Positions 54,299 to 64,000 of a stretch of 64,000 nucleotides of DNA are shown one piece after another. The translations under genes were made by a program, and so were the position numbers. The DNA is from Artocarpus heterophyllus (taxonomy: Eukaryota > Streptophyta > Magnoliopsida > Rosales > Moraceae). The stretch lies in assembly GCA_025403435.1 (NCBI GenBank), contig CM046327.1, positions 11,462,218-11,526,217 of the forward strand, in the 5' to 3' direction. The notes under the pieces are model-generated. The model was not told the DNA's origin, did no database searches, and worked only from the letters and a program-made list of their open reading frames with translations. Numbering within the stretch: the first letter of the stretch is position 1; each line of letters begins with the position of its first letter.

Positions 54299-54655
54299 TA
54301 TATTGTACCCTGAACTATTTATTTTTTGCATAATATACCTTAAACTTTCAATATTAGCAAAATGCATCTTGTACTTTAAAATCAGTGGCAATTGACGTCT
54401 AATAGCTACTTTAACTTCCATTTGTACTCTTTAATTTTCACGTGTTGAGCTTCAATTTTTTTCTTAAAATGATGATCACGACCCTTAAAAAAACTCACGT
54501 GTGAATCCTATGGCTAAAATTGTCTATGCGATTTAACACTCGTTAGCTATTAGTCCTCAATTGCTAATGATTTCAAAATTTAGGGTGTATTTTGCTAAGA
54601 TTGAAAGTTCTAGGTGCATCATACAAAACCGTATAATATGGGGTCCAATAATGCA
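54299..54655. mobile_element. Foldback MITE with arms of about 150 bp
   Basis: The left arm has CTTTCAATATTAGCAAAATG, then GGCAATTGACGTCTAATAGC. The reverse complement of the right arm has CTTTCAATCTTAGCAAAATA, then AGCAATTGAGGACTAATAGC. The outer parts pair more weakly (ATTGTACCCTGAAC against ATTGGACCCCATAT). No coding capacity; the target duplication is not resolved. Confidence 0.7.
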
Positions 54656-54724: not shown

Positions 54725-55800
54725 CAATAGATACTAGGACCATGGTTGGGATTTAGGATCACATTTAGGGACTAGAGTCAGAGTCAAGTTTTGAGACTAT
54801 GATTGAGGTTTGGTTTTGGGACAGGAATCAGTGTCGGGATTCCAGATTGGGCTTTCAGACTGAGGTTGAGATCGTGCTTTAGGACCGAGGTCAGGATTTT
54901 ACAACGGGGTTAGAGTCAGGTTTTAGGACCAAGGTCAAGGTCCGGGTTAGTTTTAGGACCAGGATCGGGCTCGAGATTCAAGATCGAGAAACCTAACCTC
55001 GACCCTAACCCTAATCATGAAACTCAACCCTGACCTCATTTTCAAAACCCAATCGCGGTCCTTAATCCCAACCTGGTTCTAGATTCTTGACTCGATCTTG
55101 AAACCCGACCCGAATTGACTTCGGTCCTAAAACATGACATTAAATCCCGACTGTAGTCTTGAATATCGACTCTGACCCCAATCTTAAAACTTGACCATGA
55201 TCCTGACCCTAAAACTTAAGATTTTTAAATTTTACCTCGGGGTTAGTCTCAAATCTCGACCCCGGCCTTGTCCTAAAACCTAATCCTAACCTCGATCCTA
55301 AATCCTAAGCCTATCCTAAAACGCGACCCCGATCCTGAATGCAAATCCCGACCGAACCTGGTCCTGAATGCCTAATCTCGAATCTTAACCCAGGTCTCGA
55401 AACCTAACCCTGATCCTGACCTCAATCTTGAAACCCAACCCAACTCTAGTCCCTAAACCTAACCCCAACTTTGGTTCCTAAACCCGACCTCAACTTAAGT
55501 TTTGAAACTCGATCACTATTTTGGTCTTGAAACCCGACCCTAACCTTAGTCTCGAATACTAACCCAGTCTCCAAACTCAACTTTGACCCTGAATCTCGAC
55601 CCAAACACCATCTCGGTCTCAAAACCCGATCCCAACCTTAACCCCGGTCTTTAATCCTAACCCTAACCCCTGTTCTCGAAACCCAACCCTAACGTCGAAC
55701 CTAAAACCCGACCTCAAATCTTGATCTAACTCCAATCCTGAATCCTAACTAAGACCCTAGTCCCGAAACCTGACCTACTTTGACTCTAGTACTAGACCTT
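54725..55800. repeat. Strand-switching degenerate hexamer array 1
   Basis: From about 54725 to 54985 the + strand is a run of GGTCNG/GATTNG-like words (TCAGGATTTT, GGACCAAGGTCAAGGTCC). From about 54990 to 55800 it becomes the complementary text (CCTAACCTCGACCCTAACCC, AAACCCGACC). The array is therefore an imperfect dyad with unequal arms of about 260 and 810 bp. The period is about 6 bp with heavy substitution. The DNA at 55800-56005 ends CAAACATACCC, matching the inverse of GGGTATGTTTG beside array 2. Confidence 0.8.
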
Positions 55801-56005
55801 TTCCTAAACTTTCTATTAATGTGGTCCTTCTGTTTAGATTACACAATATGTCTAACATAGATGTTTTTGTCGTATTTGATATTACGATACATATTGTATT
55901 AATTTTTACTTCAAATTAAATAATACTACACATAAATGTCACCAAACACTGTTTTATTTTTAAAAATACAATACAAAGTTCTAATACAACTTGCCAAACA
56001 TACCC

Positions 56006-57120
56006 TAAGTTATGATTTTTACATAAATGGCACAACATCAAACAAATAATGAATGTTGTTAAACGATTTACTGAACTATTACATTGTTAGTTTATCCTAA
56101 TATTGTTACATGAAAATGAAATAAGATTTTTTTCCTTAAAAAAAATTAAGGTTTTTGGCTTTTTTTTAAGAATTAAAATCTTTAAATTATATTAGCCTTT
56201 TAAATTTAAATAAGTTTTAAGCATAATAAAGTTGCCTAAATATTCTTATATTATGTATTAAATTATAACTGGTTATTAATTTTTATTAAAAATTATGACA
56301 AAGTAGTTTTTTTCCTCTTATATTCAGTTTGATAAGGAGTGGTTTTAACCATTGTCTCAATTATAAATAATATAAAACTTTCACATATTACAATAAAAAA
56401 ATTATTAGAATATAAAACTTTTATAGATTATAATAAAAATAGTTTTAATTAATGGTCTTTATTGTTATACCAAAAACTTTTAAATATTTCACAAATGAAA
56501 AATGCATATAATATTTGAAAATTTAGAGGCATCGTGAGAACAAAGTCGAGGATTATAGCAGTTGGGGAATTTTCGTCATCAATAAACAAAAGACAAGTAC
56601 TTCCTCGAGAATACCAAAAATAAACGACCGTAAACCAAGCAGACAACTCACCCGAGACATTCGCTACATGCCAATCCCTGACACACGGGATGATTTTGAA
56701 AGCTCTCTTTCTCACCCTTGCCCGTATTCTAAACAATGAATACAAAGCTGAGATCCACTGTTGCTCAACACCACATACCCCAATCAAATGATCAATTAAG
56801 AAATGCCATGTCACAATAACATTCTTCATTGCAAGACGTGGGAATCTGTCATTGGATAGTCCACGGGAAACGTTATTCTAAAAAGTCTAGAATATTCAAT
56901 AGTCTAAAGGAGAAATATTTTTTATAACAATAAAAAAGAAGAAAAAGGAGAGAAAAATCTCAGGACTCATTAATCAGAGCTTAGCTTTCACAGCAGAAAA
57001 CCAGCAAACACTTGGAGGGAGACAGTAGAGGTCCTAAAGGCTTCGCTCTACCTCCTGTCACCACTGAGTTTAAGAGAGAGAGAAAGAAGAAAGTTCTATA
57101 GAGAGAGAGACAGAGCGGAA
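56006..57120 (+). promoter_or_regulatory. Upstream region of the RABA4-type gene
   Basis: AT-rich to 56450 with a decayed minus-strand copy of the small MITE family (about 56340-56460). It is less AT-rich from 56520 and contains an open minus-strand stretch of 126 codons with no recognisable product, which I read as promoter DNA. GA repeats (about 57073-57113) lie in the probable 5' UTR. Confidence 0.5.
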
Positions 57121-59197
57121 ATGGCGAGCGGTGGAGGTGGTGGTTATGGCGACGCTAGCCAGAAGATAGACTACGTCTTCAAGGTCGTGTTAATCGGCGA
57201 CTCAGCGGTCGGAAAATCTCAGATACTGGCGAGGTTCGCGAGGAACGAGTTCAGTTTGGACTCGAAAGCCACAATCGGTGTCGAGTTCCAGACCAGGACT
57301 GTCGTCATCCAGCACAAGAGCGTCAAGGCTCAGATCTGGGACACTGCTGGCCAAGAGAGGTAATCTCGATCGTTCTTCCTTTGTATTTTCGCTTAATTTT
57401 TTGTTTTTGTAGTTGTTTATGTTGTGTTTGTTCATTTTCTTTGTTAAATCGTTTTCGGGATTTCGGTATTTTCTCCTTTCGTGATTGGAGTAATTGCAAT
57501 AAACGTGTTTCGTTGTTTTGCCGAAAATGGAAATGTTGGATTTGCTGCAAAATGTTGTGGTTTTGCCTGTGACCAGTGCTAATTGCATGGTTTTTCTAGT
57601 TGCGACTTTGGCAGAATAAAGTGCCTTATTTACATTTTTTCCCTCTTCGTTTAATCATATGTACCTCGATTAGATGATTTACACTGTACAAAACCGTATC
57701 CTGAATGATTAAATTTTCCAACTTTGTTTCTGTTCGTAATTTCTAACATGTGGATAAAAACTCATCAGAATTTTTACTAGAGGTAAATAAGTAAATAGAT
57801 AAATAAACAAATATATGGATTGCGTTTGATCTAGATCTAGATGCAAGCCAAGATCTTAGAATGTATACATTAATGTCCTTTTTTTTTTTGGCGTCCAATT
57901 GTGTCAACAGATTTGATGGATGAAGACGTGGTTGTGTTAATACAATGTGGTTCAGTTATCTTTTCCTTTTTGAAGGAAATTATAAACACCGTTACAGGTT
58001 TTAATTATTCCAAAATTTTGTTAAGTTCACCTGTTCTAGTGTTCCTCGAGATTTTCTTGTAGAAAAAGTGTTGGATCTCGATGTCATGGAATTACGATAA
58101 AATTTTTTATACAACTTGGGTCTTTATTTGGATCACATTAAATGGACATCATTGATTGATTCGGTTGTTTATAATAAGAAATATTAAAACCCCACTATTA
58201 AATCTTCTTTTAGAACTTGGACGAAATATTGTGCTCCTAATCATTAACATGTTTTATAAAGAGGTTGAGATGTTATTCAGAAAGTTGGATCCGTGAAACT
58301 TACATGTCATGAAGTTAAGATAGGAAGTTGAGATGTTACTTAAAAAGCTGGCGCTGCAAAAACTTTTTTTGTCATGAAGATTTTGTGTTGGTATGTAAAA
58401 GCTTAATAATGATGGATAACTAGGTTTTACATAAGTCTCTTGCTACGTTTGATTGTGAAGTACCTGCATCATTTTCTCAACAATTTATGTCAAATGATGC
58501 TTTCAGCTCATCAAAATTTTAGTGTGACGCGTAACTTATGCAGCATCATAGAGACTCTTTGCACCTGCCCTTTGGGTTTGCTAGAGTTTACTGTCTTGAT
58601 GCATTTTTGGGAAATTCTCCATTCCCACTATTTCTTGTTCTCAGAATGCTAAAAGTTTCCATCTATCGCTTACTTGAGTCATATTCCAATTCCTGCATGC
58701 AGTGTTAGGTAAGTTTTTCATTCTAATTCTCCTGATTGTGATGTTTGACCAGATACAGAGCAGTGACAAGTGCTTACTACAGGGGTGCTGTTGGTGCAAT
58801 GCTGGTTTATGACATAACCAAACGCCAGACCTTTGATCACATTCCGCGTTGGCTTGAAGAGCTACGTGGCCATGCCGACAAGAACATAGTCATTATTCTG
58901 ATTGGAAACAAAACAGATCTGGAGAACCAGCGTGCAGTTCCCATTGAAGATGCCAAAGAATTTGCTCAGAAAGAGGGACTTTTCTTCTTGGAGACTTCAG
59001 CACTGGACTCAACTAACGTCGAGAATGCCTTCTTGACTGTGCTGACTGAGATCTTTAACATTGTGAACAAGAAGAACTTAACTGCTGGTGAAGACCAAGC
59101 TAAGGGTAACCCTGCATTGCTTTCCGGCAAGAAGATCCTTGTCCCAGGCCCTGCGCAGGTTATCCCAGAGAAGAAAATGTGCTGTAAATCATCGTGA
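57121..59197 (+). CDS. RAB GTPase of the RABA4 (RAB11-like) group
   Basis: Small GTPase that directs post-Golgi/trans-Golgi-network vesicles to the plasma membrane and cell wall. Two exons, 57121-57359 and 58753-59197, join to 227 residues ending TGA. Nucleotide motifs are complete: GDSAVGKS (26-33), switch I ATIGVEF, WDTAGQE (73-79), NKTD (132-135) and ETSA (160-163). The RAB effector region reads [20 protein letters not shown]. The C-terminus MCCKSS carries the paired cysteines for geranylgeranylation. The single intron falls between WDTAGQER and YRAVTSAYY, the usual plant RABA site. The Gly-rich start ([20 protein letters not shown]) is typical of RABA4. Intact; subgroup within RABA4 not decided. 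Confidence 0.95.
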
Positions 59198-60976: not shown

Positions 60977-61317
60977 TGTTGAGGGTTATGGTTGGAACAT
61001 AGTGTCGGAGAGGCTGCTTGGAGAGCCTCTACGTGGATTTGCCTCCTGCAGGGGGAGCGCGTCCCCTAAGAGTCAAACATTTTTTCTCTTGAATAAGAGG
61101 GTTTTAGGCATATCCTAGGTACCAATCCACTGATCAGCTCGATCGGTACCTGGGATAGACTTAAGACCCTCTTATACGAGTGGTCAAAGGTTTGAATCCT
61201 AGGGGATGCACTCCCCTCGCAGGAGGCAAATCCGAACAGAGGCTCCCCGAGCAGCTTCTCGGGCAATACGTTCGAGGGACCCGTCAAGTTTCGACCGGGG
61301 AACCATAACCCTCAACA
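60977..61317. mobile_element. Foldback element, 341 bp, with perfect 5-bp TSD
   Basis: Nearly the whole element is an inverted repeat. The left arm starts TGTTGAGGGTTATGGTT and the right arm ends AACCATAACCCTCAACA, an exact terminal match of 17 bp. The arms continue to pair inward (GATTTGCCTCCTGC, AATAAGAGGGTTTTAG against TATAAGAGGGTCTTAAG) to a centre near GGTACC. TCGAT flanks both sides (60972-60976 and 61318-61322). TG..CA ends plus a 5-bp duplication are LTR-like, yet the structure is palindromic. No ORF. GGTTTGAATCCTA resembles a tRNA-type B box. Confidence 0.85.
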
Positions 61318-61330
61318 TCGATGTACGGGT

Positions 61331-62966
61331 ATGTTTGACACATCGTATTGTATTGTATTACATTGTATTATATTATATTGTATCAGTGTTATATAATACA
61401 TTGTTTGGTTTTGTACTGTATTATTATATTGTATTACACTATACAATGTTTGTTTGGTACTGTATTGTATTGTATCAGTATTTAAACTTTAAATATAGTA
61501 AATTTAGGTCATAGTTTCAAGGTTGAAATTTAGGACCCGGTCGAGGTTAGGATAGGGATTTAGAACAGGGGACGCGTTGGGGTTAGGTTTCGAGACCTAG
61601 GTCGAGGTCAGGATTTAGATCGACCTAAGATTCATAATTCAGTGTTAGGGTCGGGATTCAAGAGCAAGGTCGGGGTCAAGATTTGAGATTCGGGATTAAG
61701 ATTTTGGGTCAGGGCTAGGGTCAGGATTCGGGACTTGGGATCGGGACAGCGGTCTAGGTTGGGAGTTAGGACTGGGGTCGAGATCGAGATTCAGGACAGG
61801 GATCGGGGTTGGGATTTGAGATCGAAGTCAGAATTCGCTATTTGGGGTTAGGGTCAGGATTTGGGGTCTGGGTTAGGATTCAAGGCTAGGGTCGGGGGTT
61901 GGGATTCGTGATTTGGCGTCCAGGTCGAGATTGAAAACGATGTTTGGGACAGGGATCGGGGTTGGGATTCAAGACCGTGGTTGGGGTGGGATACAGGGTA
62001 TAGTGTCAGGATCAGGATTCAGGACAGAGATTAGGGTTGAGGTCAGAATTTGGTTTAGGGATTTGGGTCGGGGTCAAGATTCACGATTTGGGTTCGGGGT
62101 CGGGATCGAGATCGAGATCGAGATTCTAAACAGGGATTGAAATCAAGATTTAGGACTAGGGTTGGAATTTGGGACATGGATTGAGGTCGTGTTGGAATCG
62201 GGATTTGAGACTAGGGTCAAGATTTAGGGTCCGAGTGCTGACCTTGACCTTGGAATTCTCCCTCAGTCACGACCTAGACCTCGATCCCTATCCCAAATCC
62301 TGATCCTAACCTTGGTCTTGAATTTCGACTCTGATCCTAATCTCGATCCTAAATCTCAACCCCAATCCTAATCTCAAATCTCGAACCAAGCCTCAGTCTT
62401 GAATCTTGACTCCAACCTAGAATCTTGACCTCGACCATAGTCCCAAATCCTGACTTTGACACTGACCTCAAATCCCAACCCTGAATCATGAATCCCAATC
62501 CCGACCTTGACCCAGACCCCGACCCTAATCCTAGACTGAATCCTGATCTCGACCATGATTCTAAATCCCGACCCCAAACTCGATCCCGATCGTAGTCCCG
62601 AATCCTTACCCCAACCTCGACTTTGGTCCAGAATCTTAACCTCAACCTCGACCCCGACCCCGACCCCAACCCCGACCCTGAATTGTGAATTTTGACCATA
62701 ACCTCTATCTCAAATCCCAACCTCGACTCAAAATCCCAACCACAACCTTGGTCCCAAATCCCACCCTCGATCATAGTCCCAAATCCCACCCTCTATCACG
62801 GTCCCAAATCCCACCCCCAAATTCTGACCTTGACCCTGATTTCAAACCTCGATGCTGACCTTGACCTCCACCCTAGTCTTGAATTTTGACCCTAACCCCT
62901 ATCTCGAATCCTGACCTCGACTCCAAATCCCAACCACAACCTTGGTCCCAAATCCCACCCTCGATC
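61331..62966. repeat. Strand-switching degenerate hexamer array 2 with MITE-like left end
   Basis: It starts GGGTATGTTTGACACATCG, followed by a TATTG microsatellite (about 61348-61475). From about 61510 to 62235 the + strand carries GGTCGGGATTCAGGA-like words, including GATCGAGATCGAGATCGAG. From about 62240 to 62966 it carries the complement, including CCCCGACCCCGACCCCAACC. The arms are nearly equal (about 720 bp each). The period is about 6 bp. Open frames on both strands are Gly/Arg/Ile low complexity and not genes. The right end is cut by an LTR at 62967. Confidence 0.8.
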
Positions 62967-64000
62967 TGTTAGACATGTATGCTCTAAGGAGCAAAAATAT
63001 AATACGTTTTTGGAGACATTTTTATCAATAAAGAATTTATTCATTTATATATACCAAATATTGTCCTCTTTACGTTCATATTTGTTGAATGTATGATAAG
63101 CAAACAGTAGTCTGAGACTGTCAGTCTAAACCTTAAGAGTTGGGCATATGATGGGATGATTATGCGGTAGACACGACTCTTAAGGTGATGGTCTAAAATA
63201 TATGATCCGCAATCGAGGGAATAAAGTTGGGCGCTTTATTTATGTAAAGATTGTTATGTTGTCTATATCCCTTTTGGGAGATGGTTTGTCTTGGCCATCG
63301 GAGTTGGACTCCGTGAATAGAAACATTGGCGCGTTGTCATAGGTGACGATGTGTTGGATCGGGACATAAAGTGAATTGATTTGGATTAATAATTCTGTCT
63401 TGGCAAATTGATTCACTTTAGACAATCATTTGTATTGTATCTTAATCCTGAGATGAATAATGGGCCTGTTGTCTCGACTTGTGTCTTTTGATGTACCAAT
63501 GGGTGACTCCCACATCTCTATAGTGGCATGCATGCCGGTACGTTGGAGGCATGACTCTTGATAGCGTAGACTTGTTATTCATAGATATGGAATCCATAGC
63601 TCCTCTTTAGGAGTAATGATATCCTCTTATATGTGTTGTCCTGTAATTGGAAAACTGGAGCGCTCAACCATGTGGATACATAGGTGTAACCGAATGGTAT
63701 ACTATCTTTGGATGGTAAGTTTTCTAATGGTGAGACAATGGAACGTAAGATAAAAATAATCGGGAAGGTAAGACAGAACTTGTCCTTAAGCCGGTTATGG
63801 ATGATCATATGGGGATGCGATACACTATGATATGTCATGGAGACTTAGCTACACGAGCTTCGTAATTCTATAAAGTTCGAGAGTGCAGCTCTAAGCTTTT
63901 AGTAGAGTAGCGTTGGAGTTGATAATTGTGAAATGTATATCTGGGATATTGGGTTTCATAATTATCATGAGCTTAAACTTTATAGGTCCATTTTGGTCCC
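62967..64000 (+). mobile_element. Copia-type LTR, left end present, right end outside the window
   Basis: It starts TGTTAGACATGTATGCTC. The next segments (GTTTTTGGAGACATTTTTAT, CAATAAAGAATTTATTCATT) are typical of long plant copia/LARD LTRs. The sequence at 63870-64000 aligns with 36050-36180, so it is a second member of that family. No coding region is reached in this window. Confidence 0.7.

Follow-up and report, generated by a model that had tools for sequence, protein, structure and literature searches.

A long G-to-C repeat dyad in Artocarpus heterophyllus is very probably a non-autonomous PIF/Harbinger transposon in foldback form

Introduction

How foldback transposons acquire arms built of repeats is an old question, and usually the end products alone are seen. 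At a locus of Artocarpus heterophyllus, G-rich text on the + strand turns abruptly into C-rich text. The original prediction, made from the letters of the DNA, described a degenerate 6-bp repeat arranged as a large imperfect dyad, able to fold into a long hairpin and representing a non-autonomous foldback-type transposon. The window is the whole stretch of DNA that was analyzed (64,000 nucleotides; C1:11462218–11526217), and genome-wide searches were performed in the plant's own 985-Mb genome.

Results

The dyad and its predicted fold

The G-rich text (61530–62236) was shown to reach a GC skew of +0.59 and the C-rich text (62240–62966) a skew of -0.66, with a sharp switch at about 62237–62239. 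Global alignment of the left arm with the reverse-complemented right arm gave 78% identity over 624 aligned columns. The alignment score of 176 compared to 65.5 ± 7.9 in dinucleotide shuffles, none of which (0/100) scored as high, confirms the large imperfect dyad. The arms were also predicted to fold into a long imperfect hairpin, as had been proposed: the predicted RNA fold of 61530–62966 reached -674.7 kcal/mol compared to -480.4 ± 6.6 for 12 per-arm dinucleotide shuffles, 505 of its 526 pairs were inter-arm, and three other window stretches of equal length folded at only -251 to -315.

Anatomy of the element in the window

The foldback occupies 61327–62966 of the window, where it is interrupted by an LTR retrotransposon, and the remainder lies about 9.6 kb downstream (Table 1; ends are named alpha and beta after the two subterminal regions described below). 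The nested retrotransposon spans window position 62967 to L009:8609, has TGTTAG...CAACA ends and is flanked by a CGATC duplication. Its LTRs showed 99.0% identity over 2002 aligned bp, and it is a recent insertion into the foldback arm. Without it, the length of the element is about 2.4 kb, of which the two arms take up about 707 and 1243 bp. The two arms and the switch near 62237 were thus as originally described, but the equal arm length of about 720 bp is an accident, because the retrotransposon cuts the right arm at 62966. Similarly, the GGGTATGTTTG end and the TATTG microsatellite that were said to precede the dyad are both present, but inside the element, with the GGGTATGTTTG end at 61327.

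Both termini of the window element contain an exact G(N)5GTT, and its flanks differ (TAC on the left, TAA on the right). By alignment, the beta subterminal region is shared with other elements' beta ends and with that of a transposase-bearing element (see below). Transposase domains were absent from the window element.

Table 1. Coordinates of the foldback element, of the retrotransposon nested in it and of the second family member (array 1). Positions are those of the window unless prefixed.
Feature	Position	Strand	Remarks
Target-site duplication candidate, left	61324..61326	+	TAC; right copy TAA at L009:9384-9386, beyond the window; one-base mismatch
Left terminal inverted repeat GGGTATGTTTGACACATCGTATT (beta end)	61327..61349	+	23/23 to the family pattern
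Beta subterminal region	61350..61529	+	TATTG pentamers, then TTAGTGTTATACAATACATTG-type text, grading into the array
Beta-side arm	61530..62236	+	G-rich array, degenerate 25-bp unit
Switch point (apex)	62237..62239	.	Without spacer
Alpha-side arm, first part	62240..62966	-	C-rich on the + strand
Alpha-side arm, rest	L009:8615-about 9130		Past the nested retrotransposon, outside the window
Alpha subterminal region (AT-rich) and right terminus	Ends at L009:9383 (C1:11535600)		Reads GGGCACGTTTAATACGTCATATT on the - strand (inward); then TAA
Nested LTR retrotransposon, 5' LTR start	62967..64000	.	Breaks the arm; not foldback sequence
Array 1, G-rich arm	54738..54988	+	Second family member, left-truncated
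Array 1, C-rich (alpha-side) arm	54989..55800	-	Same family
Array 1, alpha subterminal region and terminus	55801..56005	-	Reads GGGTATGTTTGGCAAGTTGTATT on the - strand

The second family member, array 1, has an intact alpha end followed by TAA (56006–56008), and its beta (left) end was not found within the window. Array 1 and the dyad (array 2) have the same orientation and flank a Ras/Rab-like GTPase gene with exon-like ORFs at 56974–57363 and 58742–59197. Domain matches in the window were to a class-II DAHP synthase, a Ras-family GTPase, a MATH-domain protein and retrotransposon proteins (RVT_2, Tf2-1-like). Two further elements were observed. A 341-bp TG...CA element (TGTTGAGGG...CCCTCAACA; 60977–61317) with a 5-bp duplication, TCGAT, lies 9 bp left of the foldback, and is solo-LTR-like, containing a long palindrome (arms of 133 bp, 77%). 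A MITE-like inverted repeat just left of array 1 (54324–54628) has 85-bp arms, 79% complementary and 135 bp apart.

The repeat unit

Hexamers are present in the arrays as originally described, but a degenerate 25-mer (7+6+6+6) with the profile GATTCaG GATCag GgTCGG GGTTgG (lower case, below half) is the best description of the unit. Autocorrelation showed peaks including lags 6, 19, 25, and 31 for array 1 and array 2, and a cyclic profile trained on their four arms fitted best at 25 positions among seven lengths compared. With 26 held-out arms from 13 other elements (21,555 bp), 25 was again the best of nine lengths (0.679 bits/base; 24: 0.640, 26: 0.650, 6: 0.658). Variation within the arrays consists mostly of transitions (703 vs. 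187 transversions). Loss of methyl-cytosine at CpG was considered as a source of the degenerate positions, which in every hexamer are a C/T and then a G/A. This was unsupported (CG 88, TG 73, CA 85, TA 67), since the double-change class is not depleted (odds 0.95, p 0.91).

A dispersed family with two distinct ends

The 23-bp terminus pattern GGGYRTGTTTGRCAYAYYGTATT gave 1007 genome matches (481+526) with at most two mismatches, compared to four (2+2) for the reversed pattern. Fourteen of these loci were fetched: L035, in which both ends were visible, and 13 perfect matches picked by hand at roughly even steps. The latter consisted of 11 short MITEs, one foldback (L047) and one end of a transposase-bearing element (L043). 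The short MITEs (86–129 bp) are composed of a terminus, TATTG pentamers and a second terminus.

Both ends were found for 14 foldback elements of 1.6–2.7 kb (1565–2694 bp): the window element, L011, L030, L031, L032, L035, L047, L050, L052, L053, L054, L058, L059, and L060, the seven from L050 onward having been retained because a beta end lies opposite the alpha end. All 14 share one layout of alpha end, G-rich array, switch, C-rich array and beta end. The polarity of G then C was found at 9/9 loci (arrays 1 and 2, L011, and L029–L034, the last six selected among places matched in both orientations), and also in L035 and L047. Alignment of 260 bp from each end revealed two distinct subterminal regions, alpha and beta. 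One end of each kind was present in all seven elements in which the terminus alone had first located both ends (window, L011, L030, L031, L032, L035, and L047). PIF/Harbinger elements have terminal inverted repeats of about 14–25 bp with G(N)5GTT; the 23-bp termini here are of this kind, and the exact motif is retained at 16 of the 28 termini.

Ends were sought at 17 places with a pattern drawn partly from the same loci. Eleven ends scored 19–24 of 24, and the other six scored 14–17, which is within the range of the 140 control stretches, whose maximum was 17. Ends were not found for L033 (both), L034 (right), L029 (right, in the stretch examined) and array 1 (left). The right end of L030 scored 17, as did 3/140 control stretches, so the support for it comes chiefly from the matching TTA and from alpha homology. 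A search with the alpha end gave 275 first-look candidates, and 40 of the 40 scored were matches. At 14 sampled alpha-end loci, at least two consecutive G-rich 100-bp blocks lay beside the alpha end in 12 (not L055 and L056), a G-to-C switch followed in nine and an opposite beta end in seven. A beta end within about 3 kb was missing at the other seven: L055, L056, L061, and L062 showed no clear switch, L051 was interrupted, and L049 and L057 had no beta match.

Among the 14 two-ended elements (91 pairs), ends were a median of 86% alike and arms 79% (gappy); percent identity by itself is hardly informative for the arrays, because the arm-to-arm value equals that of alpha vs. beta arms (79%). 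Nearly end-to-end alignments of whole elements were obtained for several pairs, among them L047–L054, L032–L054, and L032–L052 at 67–68%.

Two oppositely oriented foldbacks on one contig (C3:14109826–14111097 and C3:10886811–10888149) had equal query scores, which may reflect either an inverted segmental duplication or a doubling in the assembly. Eighteen loci collected earlier by GGGTATGTTTGG alone comprised mostly other Tourist-like families and one foldback (L011), with TAA or TTA before the end in 13/18. Nine of them (L014, L015, L017, L018, L019, L021, L024, L026, and L028) form a Tourist-like MITE family that shares the text after the terminus and has a partner end at 106–120 bp in 6/9; its inner text, judged by eye, is unlike that of the foldbacks. 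L012, L020, and L022 start with GGGTATGTTTGG, continue with purine-rich (GA/GGA) text and then change skew, and are possibly a second family with short-repeat arms.

Target-site duplications

Identical flanks of TTA were found for 8 of the 14 two-ended elements (L011, L030, L031, L035, L052, L053, L058, and L060). L054 is flanked by CAA on both sides, its right terminus being weak (15 of 23, the second-best score at the locus). Identical flanks were missing in the remaining five: the window element, L047 (TTA/TTT), L032 (CAA/TTA), L059 (CAA/TAC) and L050, the right terminus of which is unplaced. The short MITEs had identical TAA or TTA flanks in 9/11 cases (not L038 and L040). Thus, the family shows the 3-bp TAA/TTA duplication of PIF/Harbinger, the window element itself having TAC/TAA.

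The genome-wide search that had been suggested for other G-to-C switch arrays thereby revealed further loci with shared termini and target duplications. Copies in one orientation only and without common ends had been named in the original prediction as the outcome that would count against it; many copies with shared ends and target-site duplications were found instead, and the reading as a foldback-type non-autonomous transposon held. It is hardly conceivable that two independent minisatellite arrays met head to head by chance, with no transposon involved. Arms that are not mirror copies (see below) would agree with such a meeting, but the conserved termini and subterminal regions, the target duplications and the nearly end-to-end alignment of copies do not; common ends and duplications are precisely what speaks against it.

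The elements have the long inverted arms of short tandem repeats, able to fold, that characterize the foldback structural class. At 1565–2694 bp they exceed the few hundred bp of a MITE, a size to which the 86–129-bp sister elements conform.

Transposase-bearing relatives and a one-sided array

At least 155 matches to the transposase domain PF13359 were found genome-wide (of 626 candidates, 150 were scored), one of them 2.8 kb inside the L043 terminus. The element at C13:17912958–17919348 is 6391 bp long, has termini scoring 20 and 23 of 23 and is flanked by TTA on both sides. It showed similarity to DDE_Tnp_4 (PF13359; 1e-10), Plant_tran (PF04827; 3e-8) and Myb_DNA-bind_3 (PF12776; 6.5e-7); two of the four pieces scanned had no domain match. 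Judged by these matches, it carries remnants of a PIF/Harbinger transposase gene and of a Myb-like gene, the gene pair (DDE transposase and orf1/Myb-like) of autonomous members of this superfamily.

Most described foldbacks have been assigned to Mutator, to which the majority seem to belong in the part of the source covered (PMC4079207), and the architecture found here is a foldback architecture. A Mutator-group origin of the present family is nevertheless very improbable, because its duplications are of 3 bp (TTA/TAA) and not of 8–10 bp as in FB and Mutator elements, its termini are of the G(N)5GTT kind, and the transposase domain of its relative is DDE_Tnp_4 with a Myb-like partner. This holds equally for the FB, Tetris and FARE-like kinds, FARE being the name of a Mutator-group foldback type.

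The beta side of the C13 element aligned with all 14 foldbacks (E 1e-47 or better), the alignment passing through the subterminal region and for about 175 bp into the array. The alpha side also aligned with all 14, over about 150–175 bp (E 5e-10 or better). A model of the array scored 140 bits on the beta side of the C13 element vs. 11 bits over the 400 bp at the start of its alpha side. This element thus contains a short, one-sided array, here called the seed. A search with 2.3 kb of the C13 body gave at least 66 matches, 85–97% identical, at 38 places (a hand count that took matches no more than 15 kb apart as one place; of 103 candidates, 40 were scored), and about 10 of the 38 listed places extend to the transposase-exon end of the query. 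The seed was present at 6/6 further beta ends of gene-bearing copies (87–121 bits), five of them from exon-reaching copies and one (C8/L071) from a copy whose similarity to the query is confined to the Myb-side part. TAA followed the terminus in five of the six, the L066 terminus being decayed. The alpha ends on C2 and C26 are preceded by TAA and had no array (12–15 bits); these two copies thus have TAA/TAA flanks.

Two fixed anchors enclose 14 (L066), 20 (L068 and L070), 26 (L067), and 31 bases (L069) of the seed, in steps of 6, 6, and 5, so that close copies differ by 6, 12, and 17 bases; L071 and C13 lack the second anchor and are left out of this comparison. Alignment from a common start took in 6/7 seeds and 12/14 foldback arms.

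A sister PIF/Harbinger family was observed at L064:1450–6658 (TTA/TTA) and L065, with shared gene order (tblastx) and stop-free DDE_Tnp_4 matches; many similar stop-free matches occurred among those listed. The array was absent in this sister family (13–18 bits). Among the position-matched copies assessed, the DDE matches contained stops (one each in C13, C26, C11, and C1:6370317, two in C12; the C1:6370317 match sits 1.6 kb from its body match), which counts against these copies as a working transposase source.

The reverse direction, in which the foldback came first and gene-bearing elements acquired the beta seed by recombination or gene conversion, is unlikely. The array is missing on the alpha side of three transposase-bearing copies and in L064/L065, and is therefore not universal in the superfamily, as this direction would have it. 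Against this, the seed was found in 7/7 gene-bearing copies examined, at the same place and with much the same short sequence, and it is shorter and better conserved than the arms.

Relation between the two arms

The pairing of the arms was not clearly that of a register-true mirror. A rotated right arm aligned equally well (39/100 rotations matched or exceeded the observed score). The observed fold was slightly more stable than 23/23 rotations tried (rotated right arm -657.7 ± 10.1, best -671.4; rotated left arm -652.2 ± 9.7, best -665.2). Weaker folds were also obtained when the element's own right arm was permuted in 25-base blocks (-620.0 ± 8.2; 12 permutations) and with foreign right arms from four other elements (-604.9 to -650.5). 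Cognate arms aligned no better than arms of different elements (0/9 loci stood out), and over the 350 apex-proximal bases the cognate-arm test gave a permutation p of 0.97 (11 elements), whereas 5-mer content was slightly closer between cognate arms (p 0.02, 11 elements).

Comparisons between elements, in which pairs are not independent and arm starts were placed by fixed offsets, showed the outer alpha arms to be collinear with the outer alpha arms of other elements. This alpha–alpha collinearity held for outer and apex parts (mean z 1.7–2.5, medians 1.1–1.9). Outer beta arms were likewise collinear with beta arms (mean z 1.4–2.8, medians 0.7–1.4). Alpha–beta collinearity was absent both between elements (z 0.1 to 0.3 outer, -0.4 to 0.0 apex) and within one element (z -0.5 to -0.1 outer, 0.0 to 0.8 apex). 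The alpha arm was longer than the beta arm in 13/14 elements, the exception being L053.

These data make it decidedly unlikely that the arms are a hairpin from a single inverted duplication of one array, since decayed as a palindrome. Such an origin would account for inverted arms that are 78% identical where aligned, for the own arms folding better than permuted, foreign or rotated ones, and for the slightly more similar 5-mer content of cognate arms. It does not agree with cognate arms that align no better than foreign ones, with the apex result, with alpha arms collinear with alpha and beta with beta but never alpha with beta, even within an element, or with the longer alpha arm in nearly all elements.

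Independent growth of the arms from nothing in every copy was disfavoured as well, because alpha arms are collinear with alpha arms and outer beta arms with beta arms. Since the arms of each kind are partly collinear across elements, they seem older than much of the spread of the family, and from these comparisons they seem to have been inherited from a founder rather than to be register-true mirror copies. Local growth is visible in the right arm of the window element, where one stretch recurs after about 195 bp, at 74% over its whole length and at 93% in an 87-bp core. The proposal that the arms grow by hexamer expansion therefore stands in part: seeds of close gene-bearing copies differ by about whole hexamers, but the stretch repeated at about 195 bp and the apparent age of the arms qualify it.

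Discussion

Taken whole, the dyad is very probably a non-autonomous PIF/Harbinger transposon in foldback form. The family of which it is a member is dispersed and combines G(N)5GTT-type termini of 23 bp with two kinds of subterminal end, alpha and beta, and with two arrays of one degenerate 25-bp unit. The shared ends, together with transposase-bearing relatives that have the seed at their beta end, point to a non-autonomous PIF/Harbinger foldback family. Each array reads G-rich inward from its own end, and by sequence comparison the foldback arms look like an enlarged, two-sided and inverted version of the one-sided array in the gene-bearing copies.

The family would have moved by cut-and-paste, mobilized in trans by the transposase of a gene-bearing relative. 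An internally deleted copy may have gained an inverted beta array beside its alpha end and so become a foldback, the inverted copying perhaps occurring by a template switch while the gap left by excision was repaired. Both arrays would then have been lengthened in a founder by slippage and unequal exchange, and this founder would have spread. The alpha and beta arrays are without collinearity, both within an element (mean z -0.5 to 0.8) and between elements, so they retain no trace of the proposed inverted copying. The inverted arrays may be a passive by-product or putative additional protein-binding sites. More specifically, and tentatively, since we give it a rather low probability, the array could be a docking platform for the family's Myb-like protein or transposase, which would make the foldbacks selfish amplifiers.

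The original prediction knew of no named plant family of this type, which was wrong. The closest precedent is MtPH-A6-4 of Medicago truncatula, a PIF/Harbinger element (PMC2213677). In the passages covered, it shares with the present family the G(N)5GTT termini, the TAA/TTA duplications and the tie to one transposase family, and its authors propose that abortive gap repair starting in repeats led to copy-number change and inversion (PMC2213677). It differs in its 60-bp unit with a triplicated AAACNNCTTATT motif and its GGCTTTGTTTGCGAGTT terminal inverted repeat, and the foldback label is absent from those passages (PMC2213677). The family described here has a 25-bp G-rich unit, the terminus GGGYRTGTTTGRCAYAYYGTATT, a fixed G-to-C polarity and a spacerless apex. 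In addition, its alpha and beta ends differ, its gene-bearing copies have the seed on one side, and a population of short MITEs accompanies it. It is therefore not MtPH-A6-4, which is defined by the 60-bp unit and GGCTTTGTTTGCGAGTT.

Galileo of Drosophila likewise has long inverted arms with internal tandem repeats and a known transposase superfamily, but that superfamily is P; its repeats hold binding sites of the transposase (THAP), according to the part of the source covered, and it is a precedent for arm repeats as binding sites (PMC3688188). Animal foldbacks of the Tetris/FB type share the foldback anatomy, the tandem-repeat arms and the non-autonomous copies, but have Mutator-type duplications of 8–10 bp, and Tetris is described in the portion covered as without a known transposase partner, unlike the present family with its transposase-bearing relative (PMC4079207). 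The short same-terminus elements of 86–129 bp that accompany the family resemble the Tourist-like plant MITEs of PIF/Harbinger, as far as these are treated in the part covered (PMC2213677), whereas the foldbacks are of 1.6–2.7 kb with array arms. By title and start of abstract, no PIF/Harbinger foldback with hexamer or 25-mer arms was found in open-licence PMC among the matches listed. On the same basis, literature on Harbinger and foldback elements contained no PIF/Harbinger foldback, and literature on GGGTATGTTTG contained nothing on transposons.

The family adds a PIF/Harbinger case to a foldback class mostly assigned to Mutator. A read-through transcript would form a long hairpin and is a plausible candidate source of siRNA; every copy being a ready-made long hairpin, and two of them flanking a gene in the window, the family lends itself well to small-RNA work. 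One genome seems to hold a series of gene-bearing copies with a one-sided seed, short MITEs and two-array foldbacks, so that the steps by which the arms originated can be tested by comparison. If the docking reading were true, inverted arrays at both ends of an internally deleted copy would have multiplied the putative binding sites many times, the foldback would have out-competed its transposase source, and a foldback would be the predictable end state for cut-and-paste transposons that have a slippage-prone short repeat as binding site.
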